Below are positions 4,786-41,341 of a stretch of 41,341 nucleotides of DNA, piece by piece. Below the pieces are notes generated by a model that ran no database searches, was not told the DNA's origin, and saw only the letters and a program-made list of their open reading frames with translations. Numbering within the stretch: position 1 is the first letter of the stretch; each line of letters begins with the position of its first letter. Origin of the DNA: Planctomycetota bacterium (lineage in GTDB: Bacteria; Planctomycetota; Planctomycetia; JALXBF01); assembly GCA_026991575.1 (NCBI GenBank), contig JALXBF010000155.1, positions 1 to 41,341 on the forward strand, in the 5' to 3' direction. The position numbers and the translations under genes are program-made.

Positions 4786-5267
4786 CACGTCCTGCTGCCC
4801 TCTCCGGCAACCCGAGCCCTTCCGCAGGACGCCACCGCCGCACCTCCGGGTGCTCCTCCACGCTCGGTGCCTGAGCGCAACTGCCACTCTTCGGTCGACT
4901 GGCCATTGGGCACGGGGTACCGGTTCGTTGCCTCGGCTGCTAGCCCATCGCCAGCAGCGAGGACCGTGCAGGTCGAGCTTCTGCGCAGATGGCCACCGCC
5001 AATTCGCCATGGGCCCCCCTTCCGAGCAAGACCCCGACCGGCGCGGACGATAGCTAGGCTGCTGCGGCCGGTTGCGCGGGTCCTGCTCCGGCGGCTTGCC
5101 CGCAGAGCGCATCGGTGGCGCTGGCCGCTTCGCATTGGACGGGAAGCTCACGCCAAATGCAGGCGCCACGCGCGCAGGTTACCAGAAGCCCGTGCAACGC
5201 CACGAAGCTGGCACCGGTCCCGTCACCACTCCCAGTCGCCTGCAGCCGGTCCTGGGTTGCGGGTCGG
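4786..5267. other. 482-bp convergent gene-free stretch
   Basis: This lies between the 3' end of the kinase gene (+) and the 3' end of the TPR gene (-). Open frames on the plus strand (4867-5331 and others) are Arg/Pro-rich and motif-free. Apart from the inverted repeat right after the kinase stop I see no structured element and no T-run terminator. Confidence 0.4.
4788..4831 (+). repeat. Inverted repeat just after the kinase stop codon
   Basis: CGTCCTGC (4788-4795) pairs with GCAGGACG (4824-4831). A smaller TGCC/GGCA pair lies in the loop. It starts 3 bp after the kinase stop codon. No T-run follows, so it may protect the 3' end or be a Rho-assisted stop; it is not an intrinsic terminator. 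Confidence 0.35.
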
Positions 5268-6692
5268 TTACTCGTTGCCCTCTTCGAGCTTTGCCTGGAG
5301 CCGTTCCCGCGCGGCGATTGAGGGCGTGTGAGTGGGGACCTGGTTCAGGGCAACATCGTACCAGCCGTAGGCGTCCCTGAACCAGCCGATCTGTTCGCAG
5401 TATTGTCCGATTTGATAGGCCAGGTCGCAGCGGGCCTGCTCGTCTGCGAGCACATCCCACTCGTTGCGGAAGCGCGCGAACTGCTCCAGCAGCTTGTCCC
5501 AGATTTCCTGCAACTCCTTACTGCGGGCGATGTGCTGCTGTGCCTGTTCCTGTTTGCCGATGCGCATGAGCATCTGGCCAAGCTGGTAGTGGTTCTCCGA
5601 GCTCCACGGGTTCAGCTTGACCGCTTGTTGGGCTGCCTCGGCGGCTTCCTTGCTCCGTCCGAGCACGCTGAGCAGCTGCGCCCGGAACCGCCAGCAGACA
5701 TCGGACGATTCGGCTGCTTTCGGGATCTGCGACAAAGCTCGCTCAATTTGGATCGACTCACCTACGCGGGCCAGGCAGCGAAGCCACGCTTCCCACATGA
5801 TCGGGTCATTGGGCGCTTCCTGGACGCAGCGGATTAGATAACCGCGGGCTTCGGAGGCGTTGGCCGCCTCGAGGTGGTAGATGCCCAGGGCGCGGCGTGT
5901 GTAGACGTCCTTCGGATCAAGCTCAATGGCCGGCTCTAGCTGAGCAATCGCCACGCTCGGGTCGACCATCTCGACTTCGTAACGGAGTCTGGACGCAAGC
6001 GGTTCGTGACGTCGCTCGGGCAACTCGTTCTGGTACGCTTCCCACGTGATGCGGCGGAAATCGGGCCGCCGTCGCTCCAAAGCGTACATCCCGGCCAGCT
6101 CCCGCCGCGCGGCTTGCTGGATTTCAGGCAACCCCACAATGGCCTGCTTCGGACGCAGTGCCAGGACTTGCTTGAAGCAGTCTTCGGCCTTGCGGCGATA
6201 GCGTGCTTCCAGCCAGGCCTGCCCTGCACGGAACAGCACCCGGGCCCGGACCAGAGGCGACCCTTGGATCTGTTCCAACACTTCGGCCGCCTCCTTGTAC
6301 CGCTCCTGCGCGGCGAGCACCCGTGCCAGCAGGATCTGATACTCGATGTTTTCCGGCTCCCGCTCAAGAAGCTGACGCACGATCTGATCAGCCTCGGCGA
6401 ACTGCCCAACGCGAAGCAGTTCCTCGGCCGCAGCCGGGGTTACCGGAACCGACGGTTGTCGCAGCGCATTCCAGGCAACGACCGAGCCGATCACCAGGAA
6501 GACGACCACGGCGATGGCCACCAGGTACTTCGCCCCCTGTGCCCGTGCCTGTTCGGACAACCCCGCTTCCGCCACCCCATCCGCCGTCGCAGCAGTCTGA
6601 GCAGCCGTCGGCTGTTGGCCAGCAGCCGCGTTCGGCTGATCGTGCGACTCGAGCGCTTCGTCTTTCTTCTCGTTGCTAACCTGGTCGGCCAC
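5268..6692 (-). CDS. Membrane-anchored tetratricopeptide-repeat protein
   Basis: The 474-residue product has an Ala/Gln-rich cytoplasmic N-terminus and one membrane helix at about 56-74 (YLVAIAVVVFLVIGSVVAW). A long row of TPR-type helix pairs follows. Examples are EELLRVGQFAEADQIVRQLL, ARVLAAQERYKEAAEVLEQI, RRALGIYHLEAANASEARGY and ENHYQLGQMLMRIGKQEQAQ. Such proteins scaffold protein complexes at the cell envelope; the partner is unknown. The start is GTG 6692, with AGGAG 8 bases upstream on the coding strand. It is divergent from the second sigma factor gene. A TAGACT element at 6740-6735 may be its -10. There is no catalytic domain, so I assign no enzymatic role. Confidence 0.85.
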   Translation of the reverse strand: MADQVSNEKKDEALESHDQPNAAAGQQPTAAQTAATADGVAEAGLSEQARAQGAKYLVAIAVVVFLVIGSVVAWNALRQPSVPVTPAAAEELLRVGQFAEADQIVRQLLEREPENIEYQILLARVLAAQERYKEAAEVLEQIQGSPLVRARVLFRAGQAWLEARYRRKAEDCFKQVLALRPKQAIVGLPEIQQAARRELAGMYALERRRPDFRRITWEAYQNELPERRHEPLASRLRYEVEMVDPSVAIAQLEPAIELDPKDVYTRRALGIYHLEAANASEARGYLIRCVQEAPNDPIMWEAWLRCLARVGESIQIERALSQIPKAAESSDVCWRFRAQLLSVLGRSKEAAEAAQQAVKLNPWSSENHYQLGQMLMRIGKQEQAQQHIARSKELQEIWDKLLEQFARFRNEWDVLADEQARCDLAYQIGQYCEQIGWFRDAYGWYDVALNQVPTHTPSIAARERLQAKLEEGNE

Positions 6693-6734
6693 AGGTCTGG
6701 CTCCTGACTGTACGAATCGAACGGATTTCCTTTC

Positions 6735-6740
6735 AGTCTA
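6735..6740 (-). promoter_or_regulatory. Possible -10 element (TAGACT) for the TPR gene
   Basis: Reading on the minus strand, TAGACT lies 43-48 bases before the GTG start at 6692. A weak -35 candidate (TACAGA, 6763-6758) sits at 17 bases spacing but matches the consensus at only 3 of 6 positions. Confidence 0.3.
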
Positions 6741-6825
6741 CCGCGTGCACCGCTAAATCTGTACGCAACAACCGGACCGGGTGGTTGTGCCGAAAGGCGC
6801 GGGCAGACCGCCGCCGGCAACCGGA

Positions 6826-6831
6826 TAAAAT
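6826..6831 (+). promoter_or_regulatory. Possible -10 element (TAAAAT) for the second sigma gene
   Basis: TAAAAT, within CCGGATAAAATAGCG, is an AT-rich island in GC-rich DNA, 50 bases before ATG 6881. There is no recognisable -35 box at 15-19 bases. Confidence 0.35.
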
Positions 6832-6880
6832 AGCGTTGGCTTATGCACTGTCGTGCACAAGTCGCTTCCGGACGGAGCTG

Positions 6881-7546
6881 ATGGCAGCCCACAACAACCG
6901 AGGAGACGTCCCAAGCCGTTCGGTCAGCTCGCACGCCCTGCTGGTGGAACGGATTCGGCAAGGGGACCAGGAGGCGTGGGCTCAGTTTGTTGCCGAATAC
7001 GAAGGAAGGCTGCTGGCGTTCATCGAGCCGCGCGTGCCGACGGTTCAGGACGCCGAGGACATCGTTCAGGAGACGTTGATCGGATTCCTACGCAGCCTTC
7101 CAAGCTACGACCCGCGACGGGATCTTTCGTCCTATCTGTTTGCGATCGCCGCGCACAAGCTGACCGACTGGCTGCGACGCAACGGCCGCCGGCCATGGGA
7201 TTCGGCCAGCTCCGTCGACGACCACGGCCGCCCGCTGGAAGAGTTCAGCGGTCCGGGCCGGACAGCATCGACTATCCTTCGCAGCCGCGAAGGGCACGCT
7301 CAGGACGAACAGCGCCTGGCCGCGGCGCTGGCTCAGCTGGTCCGCCGTTGGAAAGAACAGGGCCAGTGGGAGCGACTGAAGTGCATCGAGCTATTGTTTG
7401 TCCGTGGCTGGCGGAACAAGGACGTGGCGGCTGCCTTGGGCATGGGTGAGCAGCAGGTGGCAAACCTCAAGTTCCAGACCATCGCCCAGTTGAAACAACT
7501 GGTGGGCAACGTCCCGGCCGTCCTGAAGTTGGAAGAAAGCAGCTAG
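6881..7546 (+). CDS. ECF-type RNA polymerase sigma factor
   Basis: The 221-residue product is a typical ECF sigma factor. Region 2 is intact: LVERIRQGDQEAWAQFVAEY, then DAEDIVQETLIGFLRSL, then the DNA-melting helix SSYLFAIAAHKLTDWLRR. A Gly/Ser-rich linker follows. Region 4 has an atypical HTH (WRNKDVAAALGMGEQQVANL). ATG 6881 was chosen because the preceding 32 codons do not look like protein and a -10-like TAAAAT lies 50 bases upstream. GGAG ends only 3 bases before this ATG, which is short, so a start a few codons away is possible. The putative anti-sigma gene follows 22 bp downstream, making this a two-gene regulatory unit. Confidence 0.9.
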   Translation: MAAHNNRGDVPSRSVSSHALLVERIRQGDQEAWAQFVAEYEGRLLAFIEPRVPTVQDAEDIVQETLIGFLRSLPSYDPRRDLSSYLFAIAAHKLTDWLRRNGRRPWDSASSVDDHGRPLEEFSGPGRTASTILRSREGHAQDEQRLAAALAQLVRRWKEQGQWERLKCIELLFVRGWRNKDVAAALGMGEQQVANLKFQTIAQLKQLVGNVPAVLKLEESS

Positions 7547-7568
7547 GTCTGTCATAGGGGCTGGCGTC

Positions 7569-7991
7569 TTGGCGCATAGACCGAGCTACATTTCCGACGA
7601 GGAGTTGCTCGCTTATCGCGAGGAGCGGCTTCGGGTCGAGGATCTGGCACGCATAGAGCAGGCGTTGCGGGAGTCGCGTCAGCTGCGCGAGCGGCTTGCG
7701 CAGCTGGTCGAGGAAGAGGATCGCGGCTGGTACAGCGTCGGTGCCGTGTGGCGTGCCCATCGGATCAGCTGCCCTGACCGCGACACGCTTGCCGCCTACT
7801 GTTGCGGTGCCCTGCCGCAGAACGAGGCTGACTACATTCGTTTCCACATCGACGTCGTGGGCTGCCGACTGTGTGAGGCTGAGCTCACGGACGCTCAGCG
7901 GCGGCAACAAGCAGAAGAGGAGGCTCGCGCCACCCCCCGGCGAAAGCGTCTCTACGAATCCAGTCTCCGGTATCTGCCGAGCGATCGATGA
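7569..7991 (+). CDS. Putative Cys/His-rich anti-sigma factor
   Basis: This 140-residue soluble protein follows the sigma factor gene by 22 bp. The N-terminal part is helical and charged (SDEELLAYREERLRVEDLAR). The middle carries His64, Cys68, Cys78, Cys79, His93, Cys99 and Cys102, including FHIDVVGCRLC (His-x5-Cys-x2-Cys). This resembles the zinc-binding anti-sigma (ZAS) motif, which is normally His-x3-Cys-x2-Cys. I see no membrane helix, so the signal would be cytoplasmic, perhaps redox or zinc. The start is TTG 7569, with GGGG at 7557-7560. The link to the sigma factor is inferred from gene order and the motif. It could instead be a metal-binding protein of other function. Confidence 0.7.
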   Translation: MAHRPSYISDEELLAYREERLRVEDLARIEQALRESRQLRERLAQLVEEEDRGWYSVGAVWRAHRISCPDRDTLAAYCCGALPQNEADYIRFHIDVVGCRLCEAELTDAQRRQQAEEEARATPRRKRLYESSLRYLPSDR

Positions 7992-8366: not shown

Positions 8367-8954
8367 TCACTTCTGCTGCTTCTGCTTGGGTGCGGGTGAA
8401 CGAAGGGGAATCGTATAGACCAGCGCCCCAACCGGTTGCCCTGGTTTGACGTTCTTGTAGTTGTCGTGGCACATGACGCACTTAGGCAGCACGACCGGCA
8501 CCGGGGTAGCTGCCCGGTAGAACCGCTTGCCACCCCGCTTTTCGACCCGCTCGACGTAACTCTTCCCCTGGCGTAGCAGCTTGACGGCAAGCTTCTCGAA
8601 CTCGTCCTGCGGCAGGTTTCCCTCGTCGGCCGGCTCGCCGCTCACATCGATCAACCTCACCTTGTGCCAGCCCCGCTTGCCGATTGCGTCGAACCACTGG
8701 ACGGCAGCTGCACCGGCCGGGAAATCGGTCTCGTTGTGCACGTACTTTTGCGTGATGAGCACGATAGCCAGTTTGTAGATGTCGTCTAGCATGCGAACCT
8801 CGCGGCGGGCCACAGGCAGGCTAACCTCTTTGGGAACATCTGCCGCGGTGTTCCGCTTCGGCTCGGCAGGTTTCTTAGCCGTATCGCCGGCAAGTGCGTA
8901 CATGGCCAGCGCAACTGTCGTAAGCGTTCCAACGAGGCATGCGATCTTGCGCAT
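8367..8954 (-). CDS. Exported monohaem DUF3365 (Tll0287-like) protein
   Basis: The 195-residue protein has a signal peptide (about 1-22, ending ALAGDTAKK). Its sensor-like fold ends in a c-type haem motif CVMCH (Cys159, Cys162, His163), followed by DNYKNVKPGQPVGALVYTIPL. This is the typical end of DUF3365 domains, which are periplasmic haem or redox sensing modules often found before histidine kinases. Here the domain stands alone, so it may be a small periplasmic electron carrier or sensor. ATG 8954 was chosen because GGAGG lies 6 bases upstream on the coding strand and it places the signal peptide first. The frame continues to 9488 but that part looks random. A promoter at 9146-9118 and the long hairpin after the stop suggest a single-gene transcript. 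Confidence 0.85.
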   Translation of the reverse strand: MRKIACLVGTLTTVALAMYALAGDTAKKPAEPKRNTAADVPKEVSLPVARREVRMLDDIYKLAIVLITQKYVHNETDFPAGAAAVQWFDAIGKRGWHKVRLIDVSGEPADEGNLPQDEFEKLAVKLLRQGKSYVERVEKRGGKRFYRAATPVPVVLPKCVMCHDNYKNVKPGQPVGALVYTIPLRSPAPKQKQQK

Positions 8955-9445
8955 CACCAGCCTCCGCTTGAAGAGAGGTTCTACTGTTGGGTGGGCCATC
9001 AGGGGCCGCAGTGGGCTCCAGAGGCAACAGGCCACCTGGCCCCGTACACCGTTGCACAAGCTGCGCTGAGGCGGGTCGCCTTTGGGGGGGACCCTCGTCA
9101 AGGAGGGTTTTAGAGCAAGGATAGCTAACTCTGGTTGACTTGTCAACTTTATCATATCTCCATGCGTGCCAGGCACCTCCGCGGCATGCCCGGCTGCTTG
9201 GTGGCGGACCGGCGCGGAGACGATTGGGCCATTCCACTGAGGTGGCGGCGACGGACTCCTGCCGTGCGTCCAGGCAACGCCTTGCTTGAAGAGGCGGTCC
9301 AATGCGTCGCTGCTTGCCCGCCAGCACCCGCCAATGCCGCCCCGTAGTCGACCGGGTAATGACGCGGGCTGACAACGCTGCTTGGCCCGGTCCGATCGGG
9401 CAGCCTTGCGAAAGCTGCCATCTGCCCGTAGCATGCGCGCGCAGC
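8955..9445. other. 491-bp divergent region
   Basis: The region lies between the starts of the DUF3365 gene (-) and the lipoyl-fold gene (+). The only supported element is the minus-strand promoter at 9118-9146. The frames that extend both neighbouring genes into this region are Arg/Pro/Gly-rich and unlike the genes themselves. Confidence 0.4.
9118..9146 (-). promoter_or_regulatory. Sigma-70-like promoter with overlapping palindrome
   Basis: On the minus strand, TTGACA (9146-9141, a perfect -35) is followed by exactly 17 bases and TATCCT (9123-9118, 4 of 6 matches to the -10 consensus). The expected start of transcription is about 155 bases before ATG 8954. The -35 box overlaps an inverted repeat, GTTGAC (9134-9139) and GTCAAC (9142-9147), with two bases between the arms. 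That is a good place for a repressor or activator to bind. The region is unusually AT-rich for this window. Confidence 0.55.
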
Positions 9446-9733
9446 ATGAATGAGGACTTCGGCATGGAGCTGTCCGAACGCATCCCAATTCGGGTGCCCG
9501 AGGTTGGACTTGAGCCCGAATGCGAGGTTCAGGTCAGCATGTGGTTTGCGCGACCGGGCGAGCTTGTGCTCGAGGGCGACCGGCTGGTGGAACTGCTCGC
9601 CGAGGATGTCACCTTCGACGTTACGGCACCGGTAACCGGGCGTGTCGTCGAGATCCTGCGTGACGTGGACGAGCCGGTCGAGCCCGGCGAAACGATCGGC
9701 TGGCTCGAAGCCAGCGTTGAAGACGCATGGTGA
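9446..9733 (+). CDS. Lipoyl/biotinyl-fold protein lacking the acceptor lysine
   Basis: The 95-residue protein is essentially one lipoyl-type beta-barrel. The segments are IRVPEVGLEPECEVQVSMWF, ARPGELVLEGDRLVELLAED, VTFDVTAPVTGRVVEILRDV and EPVEPGETIGWLE. In lipoylated domains the hairpin reads like ETDKATVEVPAP. Here it reads LAEDVTFDVTAP, so the lysine position holds Asp54. The whole protein contains no lysine, so it cannot carry lipoate or biotin on the usual residue. Its role is therefore unknown; it might be a decoy, a structural subunit or an interaction module. The start is ATG 9446; ATG 9464 is an alternative. It is not adjacent to any dehydrogenase E2 gene. LipA and a LipB relative lie 2-3 kb away on the other strand. 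Confidence 0.8.
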   Translation: MNEDFGMELSERIPIRVPEVGLEPECEVQVSMWFARPGELVLEGDRLVELLAEDVTFDVTAPVTGRVVEILRDVDEPVEPGETIGWLEASVEDAW

Positions 9734-10083
9734 AGAGCCAACGGGCTCTTGCGTAGAGGCAGTCACCCTCGGCCAGCCCTGCTCGCCCCGCGCCGCCGGC
9801 ACGTAGCAACGTTCCCGGCCATCGGCACCAAGCGCCACGCTGCCCGGCAGCAGAAGGTGTTACGGCGGCACGAGTGCTACCACGATCCGAGCACGCCCAC
9901 ACCACCAGCAGCGCCGGGCCCCGGGGCATGCGTGCAAAGCGTCGGCTTTGACCACGCTCTCCCGGCCTGGAGCGACCGAACGCAGATCGTCGGGGCAGCA
10001 CGCACTTGTCCCACTGGTGAGCGGCTGCAGGAATTGGTAAACTACGTGAGCGTAGCATCCTGCCGTGGTGGTGCCCGACGCTG
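9734..10083. other. 350-bp intergenic stretch
   Basis: No gene is recognised here. Near the right end TAAACT (10038-10043) lies 40 bases before the FHA gene and could be its -10. It overlaps a small hairpin, CTACG (10042-10046) with CGTAG (10051-10055) around TGAG. Other open frames (9749-10279 +, 9621-10058 -) are low-complexity. Confidence 0.35.
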
Positions 10084-10533
10084 GTGGCAGAGAACGCCGA
10101 GATCGCTCACAAGCCGAAGCTGTTTGTGCTCGTTCCCGTCGGCGGTAGCGGTCGACCGGTGCCTTTGCGCAGGCCGCTTTATGTGGTTGGCCGTTCGCGG
10201 CACGTGGACATCCGCATCCGGGACCGCGCCGTCTCCAAGGTTCACGCCATCCTGTTTAACTGCGCCGGCGCTCTACTGATCCGCGACCTTGGCAGCACGA
10301 ACGGTACACGGGTCAACGGCCAACGGATCCGATTGGGCGTGCTGCTACCCGGAGACAAGGTCAGCTTCGCCGCGCGCACCTTCGAGGTGAGGGTCCAGAC
10401 GCCCGATGACACAGACCGTGCCGGCTACCAGAAGACGGTGTGCGACATGGAAGCCCTTGATCCGGTCGAAGAGGAGCTGGCCGAGCCGAGTTCGCCGGTG
10501 ATTCGCGTAATGCGCAGCTCGCGTCGCCGTTAG
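10084..10533 (+). CDS. FHA-domain protein
   Basis: The 149-residue cytoplasmic protein is a single forkhead-associated domain, a phosphothreonine-binding module. The key pattern is present: Gly36-Arg37 (VVGRSRHVDIRI), Ser51 and His54 (VSKVHA), and Asn73 plus Asn78 (LGSTNGTRVNGQ). The C-terminal 40 residues form an acidic and then basic tail. Such proteins read the output of Ser/Thr kinases. A kinase gene lies about 5 kb upstream, but pairing with it is only inferred. The start is GTG 10084, without a strong ribosome binding site. The downstream gene starts 71 bp later in the same direction. Confidence 0.88.
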   Translation: MAENAEIAHKPKLFVLVPVGGSGRPVPLRRPLYVVGRSRHVDIRIRDRAVSKVHAILFNCAGALLIRDLGSTNGTRVNGQRIRLGVLLPGDKVSFAARTFEVRVQTPDDTDRAGYQKTVCDMEALDPVEEELAEPSSPVIRVMRSSRRR

Positions 10534-32967: not shown

Positions 32968-34317
32968 CTAGGGCAACTGCTCTAGAGCACGTCTCAGCGC
33001 GCTGTCGTCCAACCGGCTGGCCGACAGGTTGCCGGTGAGGTATTCCTGGTAGGCGGTCAGGTCAAAGTGGCCGTGGCCGGAGAGGTTAAAGAGCACCACG
33101 ATCTCGGTGCCACTGCTGCGCGCTTCCAGCGCAGCCCGCCGTACTGCGGCCACAGCATGAGCCGACTCTGGGGCCGGGACGATCCCTTCGGCCTGCGCGA
33201 ATTCGACGGCCGCCTGAAACACCTCCGTCTGGTCCAATGCGACAGCCTCCAGCCAGCCGTGCTCGTACAGGTGAGAAACCAGCGGCGCCATGCCGTGGTA
33301 GCGCAGGCCGCCAGCATGGACCGGCGGCGGAATGAAGCCGTGCCCGAGCGTGTGCATGGGAAGCAGCGGAGTCAACCCGGCCGTGTCGCCGTAGTCGTAG
33401 GTGAAGCGGCCGCGAGTTAGTGAGGGGGCGGCGCTAGATTCGGCGGCAATCACCCGATAGCGGCGCTGCCCAGTGCGAAGCATCTCACCAACGAACGGAA
33501 ACACCAATCCGGCGAAGTTCGACCCGCCGCCCACGGCACCAACCAGAAGCGTGGGCTGTTCGCCGGCCAGCTCAAGCTGCCGCTTAGCCTCCAGGCCGAT
33601 GATCGTCTGGTGCAGCATCACGTGGTTGAGCACGCTGCCCAGAGCATAGTGGGTATCCTCCCGTCCCAAGGCTTCCTCGACCGCCTCACTGATCGCAATC
33701 CCCAGGCTTCCAGGGCTGTCCGGATCGTCAGCCAGCACGGCCCGCCCCGCGGCGGTCCGATCGCTCGGGCTCGGGATCACCTCTGCCCCGTACAGTTCCA
33801 TCAGCACCCGCCGGTATGCTTTCTGCTGGTAGCTGACGCGCACCATGTACACCACGCAGTGCAGCTCGAATAGCCGACACGCGAACGCAAGGGCCGAACC
33901 CCACTGCCCTGCTCCGGTCTCAGTGGTCAACCGCCTTGTGCCTGCGGCGCGATTGTAGAAGGCCTGCGCGACGGCAGTGTTCGGCTTGTGACTACCCACT
34001 GGACTGACACCCTCGTACTTGAAGTAGATGCGCGCCGGCGTCTGTAGCAGACGCTCCCAACGGTCCGCGCGCACGAGAGGCGTCGGGCGCCAGAGGCGAT
34101 AGGCGGCCAACACTTCGTCAGGGATCGGCACAGCACGCTCGGTGGTCACCTCCTGCTCGATGAGGGGCGGTGGGAAAAGCGGTTCCAGCTGCGATGGATC
34201 CAGCGGCGTGCGTGTGCGCGGGTCAAGCGGCGGTTGCAGTGGTTCGGTCAGATCCGCCGCGATGTTGTACCAGGACCGGGGCAGTTCGTCCTCACCAAGG
34301 AGTATCTTCTTACCCAT
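32968..34317 (-). CDS. trpB: Tryptophan synthase beta, TrpB2 type
   Basis: The 449-residue PLP enzyme belongs to the TrpB2 branch, longer at the N-terminus than TrpB1. The start [19 protein letters not shown] is typical of that branch. Lys111 (GSHKPNTA) binds PLP, and [13 protein letters not shown] is the phosphate-binding loop. [14 protein letters not shown] and [12 protein letters not shown] are also conserved. It would join indole and serine to make tryptophan; TrpB2 can act without TrpA, and no trpA is here. A salvage role for free indole is likely, but other beta-replacement reactions are possible. It starts 7 bp after the tupA stop. Confidence 0.95.
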
Positions 34318-34323
34318 TGGCTT

Positions 34324-35229
34324 CTACTCGTTGTGACTTTCCGCACCCCCTTGCTCGACCCGGACAACCACCTGGGCATCCCGTGGCCGAAATAGGGGCT
34401 GGCCGAACCGATCGACGCCGTAGCGGGCAATCCGCTGCTGTGTTTCAGGCGCCAGCAGGAAACGCACGAAGCGGTGGGCAGCGGCGCGTTTCACCGAAGG
34501 ATGCCTTCTCCAGTTAACCACGATGACGCTGTATTGATTGAGCAGATCCGGGTCTCCTTCAAACAGGATGACACAGTCCAGGTGCTGCTGTTGAAAGAGG
34601 TAGGTCGAGCGGTCGGAGAGGGTGTAGGCGTTCAGCTCGCTTGCGATCCGTAAGGCCTGAGCCATGCCGGCACCGGCTACTCGGTACCATGCCCCGCCGG
34701 GAACAACGCCGGCCTTGTCCCAGAGGGCACGCTCTTTCTTGTGCGTGCCGGAGTCATCACCACGAGACACGAACGTTGCTCTGGCGCGTGCAATGCGGCG
34801 GAAAGCGTCGACTGCGGACTGAGCAGCTTTGACCTCAGCGGGATCTCCGGCCGGCCCGACGATGACGAAGTCGTTGAACATGACCACCTCGCGTAGCTCC
34901 CCCCACCCCGCCGCCATGAACTTCTCTTCGGCAGCAGGAGCATGCGTCAGCAGAACATCCGCATCGCCGCGACGGCCCATGGCAAGGGCCTGGCCACTAC
35001 CGACCGCAACCACCTTGACCTGGATGCCGGTTTCTTCGGTGAAGATGGGTAGGAGTTCGTCCAGCAGGCCACTGTCTCGAGTGGACGTCGTGGTGGCAAG
35101 CACGATGGCTTGTTGCGGCTGCTGGACCTCAGCGCAGCCGCAAAGCAGGATCGCAGCACAGCCAAGCAGAGCCCGCACACTAATGCGGACCACGGACTGG
35201 TGCTGGTTAGCTCCCAAGATGCAAACCAT
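34324..35229 (-). CDS. tupA: TupA-like tungstate-binding lipoprotein
   Basis: The 301-residue protein has a lipoprotein signal (LLGCAAILLCGC, lipidated Cys32). Its solute-binding domain begins VLATTTSTRDSGLLDELLPI. The TTTS and DSGLL patterns are characteristic of TupA, the tungstate-binding protein of the TupABC ABC transporter. Other parts are VGSGQALAMGRRGDADVLL, FVSRGDDSGTHKKER and TLSDRSTYLF. No tupB or tupC is present in the window, which is unusual for this family. ATG 35229 was chosen because GAGG lies 6 bases upstream. It leads a tight operon with trpB2, surE and the gcvH-like gene. Tungstate could supply a tungsten enzyme elsewhere in the genome; that is inference. Confidence 0.92.
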   Translation of the reverse strand: MVCILGANQHQSVVRISVRALLGCAAILLCGCAEVQQPQQAIVLATTTSTRDSGLLDELLPIFTEETGIQVKVVAVGSGQALAMGRRGDADVLLTHAPAAEEKFMAAGWGELREVVMFNDFVIVGPAGDPAEVKAAQSAVDAFRRIARARATFVSRGDDSGTHKKERALWDKAGVVPGGAWYRVAGAGMAQALRIASELNAYTLSDRSTYLFQQQHLDCVILFEGDPDLLNQYSVIVVNWRRHPSVKRAAAHRFVRFLLAPETQQRIARYGVDRFGQPLFRPRDAQVVVRVEQGGAESHNE

Positions 35230-35587
35230 GGTCAGCCTCGCTGGGTGCGCACACGGCACGCGTTCTCGAACAAGTCAGTGTATGGCAGAGGAAGGGCGCC
35301 CCGTTGAGCGGGTGTCGATGACGGCCCTTCAGCAACCGGTCGCGATCCAACGGACCGCTGCGGGCACGACCGCAGGGACGGCAACGCGATGCACCGCCGC
35401 TGACGTCCCCTGTGATAGTTGCCAGCCCCCGGGCCCATCGTGTAAGGGCTGCGTTGGACCGTTGTTGAGGTGGCAGTGCCCTAGCACGGGCTGCGGCTGA
35501 GCTCGCTCGGTGCGATGACGTGTGAAAAAGAAGGGGCCGACCCCTGGGTCGGCCCCGGTGCCATTCGGACGGTTGATATCTGACGAA
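35230..35587. other. 358-bp intergenic region with the clpC terminator
   Basis: It lies between the tupA start and the clpC end, both on the minus strand. The clpC terminator occupies 35524-35556. The rest should contain the tupA promoter, but I do not see a convincing -10/-35 pair or riboswitch-like fold. Confidence 0.4.
35524..35556 (-). terminator. Intrinsic terminator of clpC
   Basis: GGGGCCGACCC (35533-35543) and GGGTCGGCCCC (35546-35556) are perfect inverted repeats separated by two bases. On the minus strand the stem is followed by TTCTTTTT (35532-35525). It lies about 32 bases beyond the clpC stop and is the clearest minus-strand terminator in the window. Confidence 0.92.
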
Positions 35588-38116
35588 TTACTTGCCGTCT
35601 TCGGCGCCGACCAGCGACGGCTGCTGGCCTTCTTCGCTCTCGGCCCGGAAAACGAGCCGCTTCTCGCCGTTCCGCTCCTCGACGTCGACCACGATACGGT
35701 CCTTACCGACGAACGAGTCTTTAATCAGCTCTTCGGACAGCGGGTCCTGCACGTGGTACTCGATGGCACGACGAAGCGGCCGAGCACCGTATTCGGGGTT
35801 GTAGCCCCGCTCGATCAGGAAGTTCCGGGCCGCGTCGGTGAGCTCGAGCTTGTAGCCCTTGTCGGCCAGTCGCTCGCGCAGCTTGCTGAGCTCGATGTCG
35901 ATGATCTCCTTGAGGTCGTCGCGCGTCAGTGGACGGAACACGATCACCTCGTCCACTCGGTTAAGGAACTCAGGTCGGAAGTATTTCTCGATCTCGCTCT
36001 TCACGCGCTCCTTGATCTTCTCGTACGTCACCTCCTCGTCCTGAGGCTGGAAGCCGAAGCCGGACTGGTTCTTGATCGCTTCCGCGCCTGCGTTCGTAGT
36101 CATGATCAGCACGGTATTGCGGAAGTCGACATGTCGCCCGAACGAGTCGGTCAAGCGGCCCTCTTCCATGATCTGCAACAGCATGTTGAAGACATCCGGG
36201 TGAGCCTTTTCGATCTCGTCGAGCAGCACCACGGCGTAGGGACGTCGCCGGATCTGCTCGGTCAGCTGGCCGCCTTCCTCGTAGCCGACGTAGCCCGGCG
36301 GAGCGCCGATCAAGCGGCTGACGTTGTGCTTCTCCATGTACTCGGACATATCGATCTGGATCAGCGCATCGGCGTCACCGAAGAGGAACTCGGCGAGCGC
36401 CTTGGCCGTGTGGGTCTTCCCTACGCCGGTAGGTCCGGCGAAGATGAAGCAACCGACTGGACGGCGTGGGTCTTTGAGGCCGCTGCGGGCGCGACGGACG
36501 GCGCGAGCGATCGACTTGATCGCTTCGTCCTGGCTGACCACCTTCTTGTGCAGCTCCTCTTCCATACGCAGCAGCCGCTCCCGGTCCTCGGCCGTGATCC
36601 GCGTCAGTGGGATACCGGTCATGGTGGAGACCACCTCGGCAACCACCTCCTCGTCGACCACGCCTTCCGATTCGGCCGTCTTCTGATTCCACTCCTGGAC
36701 AACCTTGTCCAGCCGGCGACGTAGCTTCTCGACCTGGTCGCGGTACCGTGCCGCCTTCTCGAAATCCTGATTCGCGACGGCTTCTTCCTTGAGCTTGGTT
36801 AGCCGCTCGATCTCTTCTTCGATTTCGCGTACCTCGGGGGGTCGGGTGGTCGACTTCAGCCGAATGCGGGCACCGGCCTCGTCGATCACGTCAATCGCCT
36901 TGTCCGGCTGGCACCGTCCGGTGATGTACCGCGACGACAACTCCACGGCCATTTCGATCGCCCGATCGGTGATTCGGACGCGGTGGTGCGCCTCGTAGCG
37001 ATCGCGCAGGCCTCGGAGGATGGCGATGGTCTGTTCGCGCGAGGGCGGTTCGACGATGATGGTCTGGAACCGCCGCTCCAGTGCACCGTCTTTCTCGATG
37101 TACTTGCGGTACTCATCCAGCGTCGTAGCGCCGATGCACTGGATTTCGCCGCGGGCAAGGGCCGGTTTCAGCACGTTGGACGCGTCGATCGCGCCTTCGG
37201 CGCCGCCCGCACCAACCAGCGTGTGCAACTCGTCGATGAACAGAATCACGTTCTTCGCCCGCCGCACCTCGTTCATGACCGCTTTGATCCGCTCCTCGAA
37301 CTGGCCACGGTACTTGGTGCCGGCGACCATCATGGCCAGGTCGAGCACGACGATGCGGCGGTCACGGAGAAGCTGAGGCACGTTGCCCTCGACGATCATC
37401 TGGGCCAGGCCCTCGACGATCGCCGTCTTGCCCACACCAGCCTCGCCCAGTAGCACCGGGTTGTTCTTCGTCCGCCGGCTCAGTACCTGGATGACCCGCT
37501 CGATCTCACGTTCGCGACCGATCACGGGATCCAGCTTGCCCTGCCGAGCCAGCTCCGTGAGGTCCCGGCCGAAGCTGTCCAGGGCGGGCGTCTTCGACTT
37601 GGTAGTGCTACGACCTGAAGGCACGGTTCCACCTCGCTCGCCCGACTCCTCGGCAAAAGAGCTATGGCCGAGCAGTTCGAGCACGGTTTCGCGGACTTCT
37701 TCCAGGCGGAGGTTCAAGTTGCGCAAGACCTGCGCCGCGACTCCCTCGGGCTCACGGAGCAGCCCCAATAGCAGGTGCTCGGTACCCACGTACCCGTGAC
37801 CTAAGGTACGTGCCTCCTCAATGGCATATTCGATAACCTTCTTCGCACGCGGCGTAAGCGGCAGCTTCCCCATCGTGACCATGTCCGGTCCACTCTGGAC
37901 CAGCTTCTCGACCTCGAAACGGATCTTGCGCAGGTCGACGTCCATGTTCTTCAACACGTTGGCCGCTACACCGCTGCCCTCCTTGACCAGGCCCAGCAAG
38001 ATGTGTTCGGTGCCCACGTACTCGTGATTGAACCGCTGGGCCTCCTGGTTAGCCAGCTGCATCACTTTGCGGGCACGCTCCGTGAAACGTTCGTAATTGG
38101 GATCCTCGAAGCTCAT
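35588..38116 (-). CDS. clpC: ATP-dependent Clp protease ATP-binding subunit ClpC
   Basis: ClpC unfolds proteins and feeds them to ClpP. The 842-residue product has two Clp_N repeats (about 8-70 and 84-148; [20 protein letters not shown]). AAA1 has Walker A GEAGVGKT (224-231) and [14 protein letters not shown]-type coiled segment sits at about 435-470 ([20 protein letters not shown]). AAA2 has Walker [15 protein letters not shown] (561-568) and [13 protein letters not shown]. The probable ClpP-binding loop is [14 protein letters not shown]. All catalytic parts are intact. ATG 38116 has GAGG about 8 bases upstream, and a TATGAT element (38348-38343) may be the -10. A strong terminator follows. 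The Clp_N fold also occurs in the fusion gene at 39365, 1.2 kb away. Confidence 0.98.
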
Positions 38117-38342
38117 GGCCTAGCCTCGTTGTCTTTCGCGATCTTTTCGGATCTCTTGGGAAATGCCGACCTCGAAGCCGAGCACCGTCGCCCGAACCTC
38201 GCGTCGCCCCGGTTTCAGAAAACCTACCGTTTCGACTGCGGCCTGCGGCAGTTCGTTCCCGCAACAACCGTGCCACTCAGCCGAACGCTCCGATCCACCC
38301 GTCCGTGCCAACCGGAAACCCCATCCATCCGCTCTCCACTAA

Positions 38343-38348
38343 ATCATA
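38343..38348 (-). promoter_or_regulatory. Possible -10 element (TATGAT) for clpC
   Basis: On the minus strand GACCGTATGATTTAG lies about 227 bases before the clpC start, just after the end of the TPR membrane gene. No CIRCE-like inverted repeat and no -35 box is visible. Confidence 0.3.
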
Positions 38349-38361
38349 CGGTCTGCAGCAA

Positions 38362-38925
38362 TCAGGCCCGAGGCGCGTCCTCGCCATTTTGCCCAGATTC
38401 AGGTTGTGACGCGAACACAACTTCTGCCAGATGGTCCGCCTCCCACTGCCACTTCGGCCCGGCTACCGCGCGACAACGTTCCAGGTACAGGTGCGCGCGG
38501 GGCAGGTCGCCGAGCAGATAAGCGGAGACGGCCATCGCAATCGCCGCATCCCCGTCGGCCGGATTACGCCGCAAGAGCGCCTGCAGCCGCGTCTCCGCCT
38601 CCTCGTACCGACCACGAAGCAGCGCAACCAGCGCGTCGCGGTACTCCCGGTCCGCCTGCTCATCGTCCGACGCTCGCCTCAGGCCGCTCAGCCACCACAG
38701 CGACTCCAGCGCCGAGCCCAACCAGAACATGGCTACCGCCAGCCACGCACCGCGGACCGCGACCGGAGGCACCCAGGCAGACCAGACCAGCCAGCTAAAC
38801 ACGGCCGTGTTTAGCAAGAGGGCGAAGACCACGGCCCGGATCAGACCATCCAGCTCGCGGCCATTCCAGATCTGCACCAGACCAGGCCAAATGTGCCACC
38901 ACCAACGGTGCTTCCCTGCCGTCAT
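38362..38925 (-). CDS. Small membrane protein with a TPR-like C-terminus
   Basis: The 187-residue protein begins with a Trp-rich part (HRWWWHIWPGLVQIWNGREL), followed by two membrane helices (LIRAVVFALLLNTAVFSWLV and VRGAWLAVAMFWLGSALESL). A TPR-like cytoplasmic pair follows (YRDALVALLRGRYEEAETRL, DAAIAMAVSAYLLGDLPRAH). It ends with a charged tail. I do not recognise a named family. The layout suggests a membrane scaffold. It lies 245 bp upstream of clpC in the same direction, so partial co-transcription is possible. The start is ATG 38925. Confidence 0.8.
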   Translation of the reverse strand: MTAGKHRWWWHIWPGLVQIWNGRELDGLIRAVVFALLLNTAVFSWLVWSAWVPPVAVRGAWLAVAMFWLGSALESLWWLSGLRRASDDEQADREYRDALVALLRGRYEEAETRLQALLRRNPADGDAAIAMAVSAYLLGDLPRAHLYLERCRAVAGPKWQWEADHLAEVVFASQPESGQNGEDAPRA

Positions 38926-39364
38926 GCCGATACTCCAATCAAGCGACCTCAGGCGGCTATCTCCCGACTCAGGCGCTGCGATTCTAAGCCCGCGGTCATG
39001 TCCCGATCAAGGTGCACTTCCTGACTACCTGCATGGAACCGGGTACCGACCAGCTCGACGAATGGCGGCCTTCAGATACGTCCCAACACCCGGCGACGCA
39101 ACACCATGGAGGCCAGCTGGCTCATGAGCAAACGCAAAACTGAGCCGTGAGACCGCAAGGGACGTGCCCTGCGATGGCCGGAAGCGTGGGGCAGCGTGCC
39201 AACCTGGGCTCCTAGACGAACAGCGAGCCTGCTGACCGGTACAATCGTTTGAAAGCCACCGACCGCTGAAACGGGCAAACCAGCGCTGGCAACAGGGCAT
39301 ACTGAGTCGGGTAACGCGCCCGATTAGCCACGGCCTGATCCCAACCACGCAGAAGCCGCCGACC
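38926..39364. other. 439-bp divergent region
   Basis: It lies between the small membrane protein gene (-) and the Clp_N-ThiE gene (+). It holds a possible -10 (TACAAT, 39240-39245). I looked for a thiamine (TPP/THI-box) riboswitch signature, such as CTGAGA and the ACCTGATC-type segment, and did not find one. Other frames (39025-39420 -) are motif-free. Confidence 0.4.
39240..39245 (+). promoter_or_regulatory. Possible -10 element (TACAAT) for the Clp_N-ThiE gene
   Basis: TACAAT in CCGGTACAATCG lies about 120 bases before ATG 39365. No -35 box at 17 bases. The long leader would leave room for control, but no riboswitch is recognised. Confidence 0.35.
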
Positions 39365-40492
39365 ATGTCCTGGTCCCGACCACTGCCCTTCAGTCCGGCT
39401 GCCGAACGTGCGATCCGCACGGCACAGGGCCTGGCGGCCGCTGCAGGCGAGTCAGAAGCAACCCCGGTTCACCTGCTGCTTGGCGTGCTGCTGGAGCAAG
39501 AGTCGCGCGGGCCGGAGTTGTTGCGCCGAGCCGGCGTCGATGTGGCCCGCCTGACTGCCCGCCTCATGGCCGCACTCAGCCTCCAGAATGCAAACGCCTT
39601 AGACCACCGGGTAGCCCTGTCGGGAGAAACTCGCGCGGTACTGCGGCGCGCACAGCAGGCAGCTGCCGCCTATCCCCCACAGCAGCCGGGCACCGAGCAC
39701 CTGCTTCAGGCCGTCCTCAGGCACGTGCCGGAATGGCACGAATTGCTGGAAGCCGAAGGGGTGCCGGTACGCCAACTGATGCGGCGTGGAGAACTCCCTG
39801 ACGACTACGATCCCGATGCCCCCCCGATCCCACTGGACGAACCGGCCGGCGAACGCCGCAGACGCGCACTTGCGAACGCCCGCCTCTACGTGCTCATCCA
39901 GCCCGGCGGGCGGTGGTCACCGGAGGAGCTGCTCAGTCGGGCCGCACAAGGGGGGGCTCAGGTGTTTCAGCTCCGGGCCAAGGCGCTGCCTGACCGCGAA
40001 CTCCTCGCGCTGGCCCGACGCCTGGCCCGGCTAGCGCGCGAGCACGACGTGCTGCTGCTGATCAACGACCGGCCTGACATTGCGCTGTTGGCTGAAGCCG
40101 ACGGCGTGCACGTAGGCCAGGACGATTTGCCACCGCAGGCGGTCCACTCGGTGGTGGGCAGCGACGTACTGGTGGGCATATCGACGCACAGCGTGGCCCA
40201 GGCCCAACAGGCGGAGGCGACCGAAGGGGTCGCCTACATAGGCGTTGGCCCCGTCTTCCGCTCAAGCACCAAGCACTTCAACCGGCCCGCGGGGCTGGAG
40301 CTGGTGCAGGCCGTCTGTCCACAAGCAGGCTTGCCCGCCTTCGCCATTGGCGGCATCGACGCGTCCAACATTGGTCAGGTGCTCGAAGCGGGCGCGCGAC
40401 GTGTGGCCGTCTGCGGAGCGATCGCGTCGGCAGATGACCCACAACAGGCCGCGGCCACGCTCCGAGAGCACCTGGATCGGTACTGGGCCTAG
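39365..40492 (+). CDS. thiE: Clp N-terminal double repeat fused to thiamine-phosphate synthase
   Basis: The 375-residue protein has two parts. Residues 8-70 and 85-138 are two Clp_N-type repeats (FSPAAERAIRTAQGLAAAAG, TPVHLLLGVLLEQESRGPEL; then LSGETRAVLRRAQQAAAAYP, GTEHLLQAVLRH). These are like the substrate/adaptor-binding head of ClpC. After a Pro/Asp-rich linker (139-171), residues 172-375 are a complete ThiE TIM barrel: FQLRAK, INDR, DGVHVGQDD, GISTHS, YIGVGPVFRSSTK and AIGGI. ThiE joins the thiazole and pyrimidine phosphates in thiamine synthesis. ThiE residues for diphosphate and Mg binding are present, so it should be active. The Clp_N part could link it to Clp proteolysis or to an adaptor. 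The stop TAG overlaps that of the convergent gene. Confidence 0.93.
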   Translation: MSWSRPLPFSPAAERAIRTAQGLAAAAGESEATPVHLLLGVLLEQESRGPELLRRAGVDVARLTARLMAALSLQNANALDHRVALSGETRAVLRRAQQAAAAYPPQQPGTEHLLQAVLRHVPEWHELLEAEGVPVRQLMRRGELPDDYDPDAPPIPLDEPAGERRRRALANARLYVLIQPGGRWSPEELLSRAAQGGAQVFQLRAKALPDRELLALARRLARLAREHDVLLLINDRPDIALLAEADGVHVGQDDLPPQAVHSVVGSDVLVGISTHSVAQAQQAEATEGVAYIGVGPVFRSSTKHFNRPAGLELVQAVCPQAGLPAFAIGGIDASNIGQVLEAGARRVAVCGAIASADDPQQAAATLREHLDRYWA

Positions 40493-41341
40493 TCCGAACC
40501 CGCCCGCGCCGGACCTGCTCGGTCTGGGCCCCCGGGCACAGCCAAACTCGACGACGCCCCCGTTTGCTTGTCCCGCAACGACGGGACATCCGCGGTCACC
40601 TGATAGATGAGGAAATCGTCCATAGGCAGGTCGCTGGCCTGCCAGGGCAGGTTCCAGCTGCCACCGGCGTAGTAATGGACCTCGCGTGAGATCGTTCGCA
40701 GCGGGTTGGGGGAACGAGGCGTCAAGTGCTGCGCTAGCCTCAGCGCGCGACGCACCTCGGGCCGCTCCAGATACTCCAGCTTCCACGTCAGAATGACCGG
40801 GAAAATCACCAGATCACCCTTCTTGAGCGCACAGTAGCGGGGATCGTACAGCTTCATCCCGGCCCGTTGAGCATAGTAGACCCAACCCCAGTGGCCAAAG
40901 AACCAGGCCGAATTGCCCGTCCGCTTGCCCAACTCAACCGCCACGCGTCCTTGATTCAGCGCGATGGCCCGGTACCAGTTGGCAAAGCGGCGGTCCGCGT
41001 CGGCCAGTGCCAGCCCCAGGATTACGGCAAGCCAGGCCGAAAACGCGTTCGTCCAGTGCCCCAGGCCGCCAGAGCCGCCGTCGTCTCGTTCCACGGCACG
41101 CATCAACAGCAGCGTGGCCGGAACAATGCCAATGGCAACATGCCGCACCGCCAAGAACGGAACGGCCAGGAGCCCGAACGCCACCAGCGCAAGGTGCCAC
41201 CAGCTGAAAAGAACCGTCAGCTCGTCGGCTTCGCGGGACGGTCCGACGCCATCGCCGGGCTGTCGAGTCGGCGGATCGCCTGCCGCTTCGGACGGCGCGT
41301 CGGCTCGGCCGCTAGACGGTCCATCAGGTAGTGGCTGGGGG
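40489..41341 (-). CDS. C-terminal part of a membrane glycosyltransferase-39-like protein (partial)
   Basis: The frame is open to the right edge, so the 5' end is outside the window; about 283 residues are visible. They start with a Pro/Gly/Asp-rich stretch, then two hydrophobic segments (LFSWWHLALVAFGLLAVPFL, then AIGIVPATLLLMRAV) and a third (FSAWLAVILGLALADA). The last 150 residues are a soluble part with SAWFFGHWGWVYYAQRAGMK. That pattern (WFxGHWGFxYY) is found near the end of some planctomycete GT39-like, multi-membrane-spanning transferases. This would place it in envelope or glycan assembly using lipid-linked sugars. The catalytic N-terminus is not visible, so the assignment is moderate. 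Its stop shares bases CTAG with the ThiE stop. Confidence 0.65.
   Translation of the reverse strand, partial: PQPLPDGPSSGRADAPSEAAGDPPTRQPGDGVGPSREADELTVLFSWWHLALVAFGLLAVPFLAVRHVAIGIVPATLLLMRAVERDDGGSGGLGHWTNAFSAWLAVILGLALADADRRFANWYRAIALNQGRVAVELGKRTGNSAWFFGHWGWVYYAQRAGMKLYDPRYCALKKGDLVIFPVILTWKLEYLERPEVRRALRLAQHLTPRSPNPLRTISREVHYYAGGSWNLPWQASDLPMDDFLIYQVTADVPSLRDKQTGASSSLAVPGGPDRAGPARAGSD

Follow-up and report, generated by a model that had tools for sequence, protein, structure and literature searches.

A Clp_N–ThiE fusion in a planctomycete as a ThiD2-less form of a class-wide Clp_N–ThiD2–ThiE architecture

The locus and the architecture of the fused protein

The window (the whole stretch of 41,341 nucleotides analysed, from a genome of the class Planctomycetia, hereafter the class) contains an open reading frame encoding a double Clp_N repeat (residues ~8–141), a linker of ~24 residues and a complete ThiE domain. 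Clp_N is a protein-docking domain that usually forms the N-terminal part of protein unfoldases. A TPR-like open reading frame and clpC lie upstream. The features are listed in Table 1, together with those of one relative discussed below. A scan of positions 34000–41341 with Rfam found no TPP riboswitch or other RNA.

Table 1. Coordinates and support of the features in the window and at the G323 locus.
Feature	Location	Strand	Remarks
clpC (double Clp_N, two AAA, UVR motif)	35588..38116	-	Divergent from thiE
TPR-like ORF between clpC and thiE	38362..38925	-	Pfam TPR below cut-off; same place in relatives
Clp_N–ThiE ORF	39365-40492	+	375 aa, ATG start
Clp_N repeat 1, residues 8-70	39386..39574	+	Pfam PF02861 2.5e-10; AF2 helices 11-70
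Clp_N repeat 2, residues 85-141, with GTEHLL	39617..39787	+	NCBIfam ClpB model 12-137; AF2 helices 87-141
Linker, residues 142-160	39788..39844	+	ThiD2 site in relatives; pLDDT falls to 68-74
ThiE domain, residues 161-375, and stop codon	39845..40492	+	TMP-TENI 3.8e-55
thiE ORF of L211 (G323:C192)	8573-10426		Clp_N–ThiD2–ThiE
clpC of L211 (G323:C192)	5217-7796	-	Divergent neighbour of thiE

The Pfam Clp_N match (PF02861) covers residues 20–71 with 40.8 bits against a cut-off of 20.7. The second repeat has no Pfam score of its own; the NCBIfam ClpB model (E = 7.5e-9) spans both repeats. The best PDB match of the N-terminal part, obtained with phmmer, is the ClpC2 N-domain 8ad9 (E = 5e-13, residues 9–118 and a second register), and the plant Clp_N-only proteins 4y0b and 4y0c match weakly. 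In the AF2 model (pLDDT 92.6, pTM 0.70, both domains confident) two four-helix Clp_N repeats are present, with helices 11–26, 34–43, 48–55 and 60–70 in the first and 87–101, 110–120, 123–130 and 135–141 in the second. The motifs TPVHLLLG and GTEHLLQA lie at residues 33–40 and 109–116, respectively.

The TMP-TENI match covers residues 187–353 (186.5 bits, cut-off 27), and the NCBIfam model TIGR00693 scores 180.8 bits (cut-off 145.1). The ThiE part matches PDB entry 1xi3 at 2.5e-35, and the TIM barrel of the model matches ThiE 2tps at 2.3e-18 (Foldseek); with the whole model as the query, all matches listed were ThiE/TenI barrels, apart from a few unrelated large designs. Residues R204, K206, N234, D235, S273, T302, K303, G329 and G330 are invariant across 73 proteins and Q202 nearly so; the catalytic Q/R/K, ND, S and TK residues (Q202, R204, K206, N234, D235, S273, T302 and K303) are all kept in the window. 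Judged from its sequence, the ThiE domain is complete and is a putative thiamin phosphate synthase. The fusion is genuine, far beyond chance: Pfam, NCBIfam, PDB and AF2 agree on Clp_N before a complete ThiE, and the double repeat that the earlier note had read is confirmed, motifs included.

Clp_N–ThiD2–ThiE across the class and a probable loss of ThiD2

The earlier note had asked whether the fusion occurs in relatives. It was found at 71 of the 105 class thiE loci examined, in 12 families, with a ThiD2 domain (PF17792) between Clp_N and ThiE; the class ThiE open reading frames are mostly ~500–700 residues long. The window protein is the only Clp_N–ThiE without ThiD2 seen among the examined loci, and in the set of genomes compared its order is represented by the window genome alone. 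It is a ThiD2-less form of the class-wide Clp_N–ThiD2–ThiE protein. A search of contigs with the window protein returned ordinary ThiE of other phyla only, with no named close relative among them. Clp_N is absent from families f6, f75, f76, f77, f80 and f82 and partly missing from f3 and f7; the six families named first have ThiD2–ThiE or ThiE alone, as do the genomes sampled from other classes.

Individual PF02861 matches were obtained for 57 of 76 N-terminal segments, or at best 57 of 72 after four (L044, L049, L064 and L130) were dropped as not Clp_N; the assignments at L049, L064 and L130 were rejected because the open frames upstream gave no match. The joint profile of the 76 segments matches ClpC1 N-domains at 1e-23 over ~138 positions, covering both repeats, and the AF2 model of a full Clp_N–ThiD2–ThiE relative has a pLDDT of 90.3. 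Within the same proteins the mean identity is 23% for Clp_N, 49% for ThiD2 and 51% for ThiE, and Clp_N is tethered by linkers of 6–167 residues. At one locus, L212:2529-3443(-) (G364), the Clp_N–ThiD2–ThiE frame is broken inside ThiD2 and ThiE resumes in another frame; in this draft genome it would be either a sequencing error or a real break.

ThiD2 phosphorylates HMP-P, not HMP, according to Thamm 2017 as cited in PMC12345177. Of 199 class genomes, 196 gave a PF17792 match; it is missing from the window genome (G000), G361 (where no thiE was found) and G368 (ThiE alone). Profile search found PF17792 in neither the window protein nor the window genome, which has a separate canonical ThiD (278 bits). 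ThiD exceeds the cut-off in 19 of the 199 class genomes, G000 and G368 among them. Its presence is associated with the absence of ThiD2 (Fisher p = 0.009 without G361 and 0.025 with it, a nominal significance that treats genomes as independent). The window linker PPIPLDEPAGERRRRALANARLYVL (PPIPLDEP...ALANARLYVL) looks as if the two sequences flanking ThiD2 in the relatives had been joined, and is similar to both; a P-I-P-L-like motif is present in 22 of 71 relatives. Since the window genome lacks a ThiD2 domain and has a separate canonical ThiD, we infer, as the simplest history of the window copy, that the middle kinase was lost in frame and that ThiD took over its reaction; this loss is seen in one draft genome of 191 contigs.

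In G368 (L089/L142) ThiE stands alone, without Clp_N and ThiD2, adjoining clpC and the TPR open reading frame, in a genome with ThiD; this loss of ThiD2 is independent of that in the window. The genomes G306, G332 and G359, which have both ThiD and ThiD2, are among those with the weakest ThiD2 scores (~1e-28 to 2e-31 versus the usual 1e-37 to 1e-43), which would fit a decay of ThiD2 in the presence of ThiD.

In the ThiE tree the window sequence branches close to the base of the class, a weakly supported position. Uniting every class row with the window sequence was not rejected (p-AU 0.78), in a tree that is weak at depth. A single early gain of Clp_N, several losses and one loss of ThiD2 on the window branch would be the simplest reading, though not a demonstrated one.

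Affinities of the Clp_N domain and the clpC neighbourhood

The Clp_N domain had been labelled 'ClpC-type', a label that did not hold. Against N-domain profiles made from the class itself, the window Clp_N scores 49.5 bits with ClpB and 17.0 with ClpC, and ClpB is the better match for 63 members and ClpC for seven; the ClpB profile is the broader of the two and favours ClpB for divergent sequences. The tree sets the ThiE-type Clp_N apart from ClpB and ClpC together (99/95), with the window among the ThiE-type domains, grouped with f7, f9, f78, f79, f83 and f84 (80/68). A family signature unlike that of either ClpB or ClpC consists of R15 (63/65), E46 (E in 61, D in 8) and R48 (46), all kept in the window. 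Judged by sequence, the Clp_N of the ThiE fusions forms a lineage of its own, distinct from those of ClpB and ClpC and nearer ClpB in score. The exception is G323, where a Clp_N 60% identical to that of ClpC lies in frame with ThiD2–ThiE (Table 1). This domain would most simply be a replacement by a copy of the N-domain of the neighbouring clpC.

In ClpC, E32 is part of the phospho-arginine pocket pArg2, and E106 and T7 are part of pArg1 (PMC12583610). The equivalents in the window are S10 for T7, V35 for E32 and E111 for E106. On inspection of the pockets, as suggested previously, the fold and the pArg1 residues S10 and E111 are kept, and the pArg2 glutamate is lost, so that of the two glutamates expected of a ClpC-type phospho-arginine reader (E32 and E106) the window has one. 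The loss of the pArg2 glutamate is family-wide (E in three of 76 rows), and most members have T/S at T7 and E/D at E106. The N-domains of class ClpB likewise lack E32 and keep E106, with PLHLL in the first repeat and TEHLL in the second. Because class ClpB shares the T7/E106 pattern, the pattern reflects the ClpB-like type, and pocket conservation was rejected as a sign of phospho-arginine binding. The machinery invoked by the earlier note does exist: a McsB-type arginine kinase (PF00217) was found in 59 of 59 class genomes and ClpS in 10 of 12, the window genome included.

The clpC gene is indeed near thiE, as the earlier note had pointed out, and its N-domain is 81–88% identical in most class genomes searched. 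The order clpC, TPR-like ORF and divergent thiE (35588–40492 in the window) recurs in L142, L145, L153 and L155. A divergent clpC and/or TPR-like ORF lies just 5' of thiE at at least 31 of the 105 class loci, in 11 families and both with and without Clp_N; this count is a lower bound because many flanks are short. The proximity is kept in the Clp_N-less families f6, f75, f76, f77 and f80, and no clpC was seen in the flanking sequence retrieved for f2, f4, f5 and f8, families with Clp_N. The juxtaposition is an old arrangement that does not depend on the Clp_N fusion. As evidence of functional coupling it was rejected, because it does not follow the presence or absence of Clp_N. The adjoining clpC may have been a donor for the fusion, which is clear only in G323.

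Possible role of the Clp_N module

For the window protein, the ThiD2-less form of the class-wide protein, the best explanation, to which we give about even chances, is that its Clp_N is a tethered protein-docking module. The ThiD2 segment, an HMP-P kinase, would have been lost in frame, with the HMP-P step passing to the separate ThiD, and the ThiE barrel would make thiamin phosphate. The Clp_N part would be non-catalytic, an independently folded docking module on a flexible tether, of a subfamily of its own nearer ClpB than ClpC. It would bind a protein or peptide ligand via the Clp_N groove or the pocket of the second repeat, and docking of the ligand would determine the location of the enzyme, its stability or its lifetime. 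The low Clp_N identity, the spread of linker lengths and the separate, confidently modelled unit argue for an accessory module with a lineage-specific ligand rather than a part of the active site. This Clp_N may plausibly be connected with the Clp/chaperone network.

Against docking, Clp_N is the least conserved part of the protein and many lineages lack it, a pattern that a near-neutral passenger would explain too. On that account an old fusion served as an aid to folding, solubility or oligomerization, had no Clp-related ligand, drifted and was repeatedly lost. The gap between the identity of Clp_N and the ~50% of the neighbouring domains and the list of families without Clp_N both favour it. 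Nevertheless, the fold has been kept, the charged signature R15, E46 and R48 persists across the family, the window protein included, one lineage swapped in a fresh ClpC N-domain instead of merely losing its own, and linkers of such varied length are easier to reconcile with a docking module than with an oligomer interface; we regard the passenger account as rather unlikely. Far less credible is an artefact of assembly or annotation, through a chimeric contig or a wrong start. The single draft genome and the single ThiD2-less case would allow it, yet there is one stop-free open frame with a linker natural at both sides, the same fusion order occurs in 12 families and ThiD is found elsewhere in the window genome.

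On the reading of the earlier note, the level or activity of ThiE would answer to ClpC proteolysis and stress through a ClpC-type N-domain that either competes with ClpC for its adaptors or recognizes phospho-arginine. In its favour are the ubiquity of the kinase and the frequency of ClpS, the pArg1 equivalents of most members, the one lineage with a true ClpC N-domain and the binding of the ClpC1 ligand cyclomarin by ClpC2, a free homologue of the ClpC N-domain (PMC10030653). The lost E32, the occurrence of the T7/E106 pattern in class ClpB, the sequence nearer ClpB and a clpC adjacency that does not follow Clp_N weigh against it. We consider it improbable, and a ClpC or phospho-arginine role is less likely than was first held, except possibly in the G323 lineage. 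Quite speculative as well is a bolder version, in which the class would control the coupling step of vitamin B1 synthesis through Clp_N, either read by ClpB/ClpC partners or itself binding tagged proteins, so that the level or activity of the thiamin synthase would follow protein-quality stress, one lineage having swapped the domain for the N-domain of the neighbouring clpC.

Returning to the docking module, if it works it would represent a non-unfoldase, enzyme-borne use of Clp_N across most families of one bacterial class, and a direct, testable link of protein quality control to cofactor synthesis. Clp_N–ThiD2–ThiE is an old and widespread design in the class, and the window copy is a trimmed form without the middle kinase. 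With Clp_N retained, ThiD2 gone and ThiD present, it is a natural experiment that separates the role of Clp_N from that of ThiD2.

The component parts are known. In the open-access literature searched, no description of Clp_N fused to thiamin enzymes was found; the fusion is real, conserved and under-described. Bifunctional ThiD2–ThiE proteins (PF17792 + PF02581; PRK02615) have a C-terminal ThiE barrel like the window protein and share ThiD2 with the class relatives; the window protein has Clp_N in place of ThiD2, whereas the class relatives have it in addition. The N-domains of ClpB and ClpC share the double Clp_N fold, with class ClpB also lacking E32 and having E106, but the window protein is without AAA domains and belongs to its own lineage with the R15/E46/R48 signature. 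Plant Clp_N-only proteins (4y0b and 4y0c) also carry Clp_N without AAA modules, without fusion to an enzyme and with weak similarity. Actinobacterial ClpC2 (8ad9 and 9p2p) resembles the window protein in having Clp_N outside an unfoldase, with TPxHLLLG in the first repeat and GTEHLL in the second; it differs in having no enzyme fusion and in its binding of cyclomarin and DNA (PMC10030653).

The class also encodes Clp_N proteins that stand alone, with no AAA domain, at L208:1209-2039, L209:1370-1816 and L210:1484-1984(-), one with two tandem double domains and two with a single one; they recall actinobacterial ClpC2. At L207:1778-3178 (G014:C314), directly upstream of clpC (L207:3596-5908) on the same strand, a 466-residue protein consists solely of ClpC-type double Clp_N domains, three in tandem (six Pfam stretches, 3.5e-74).
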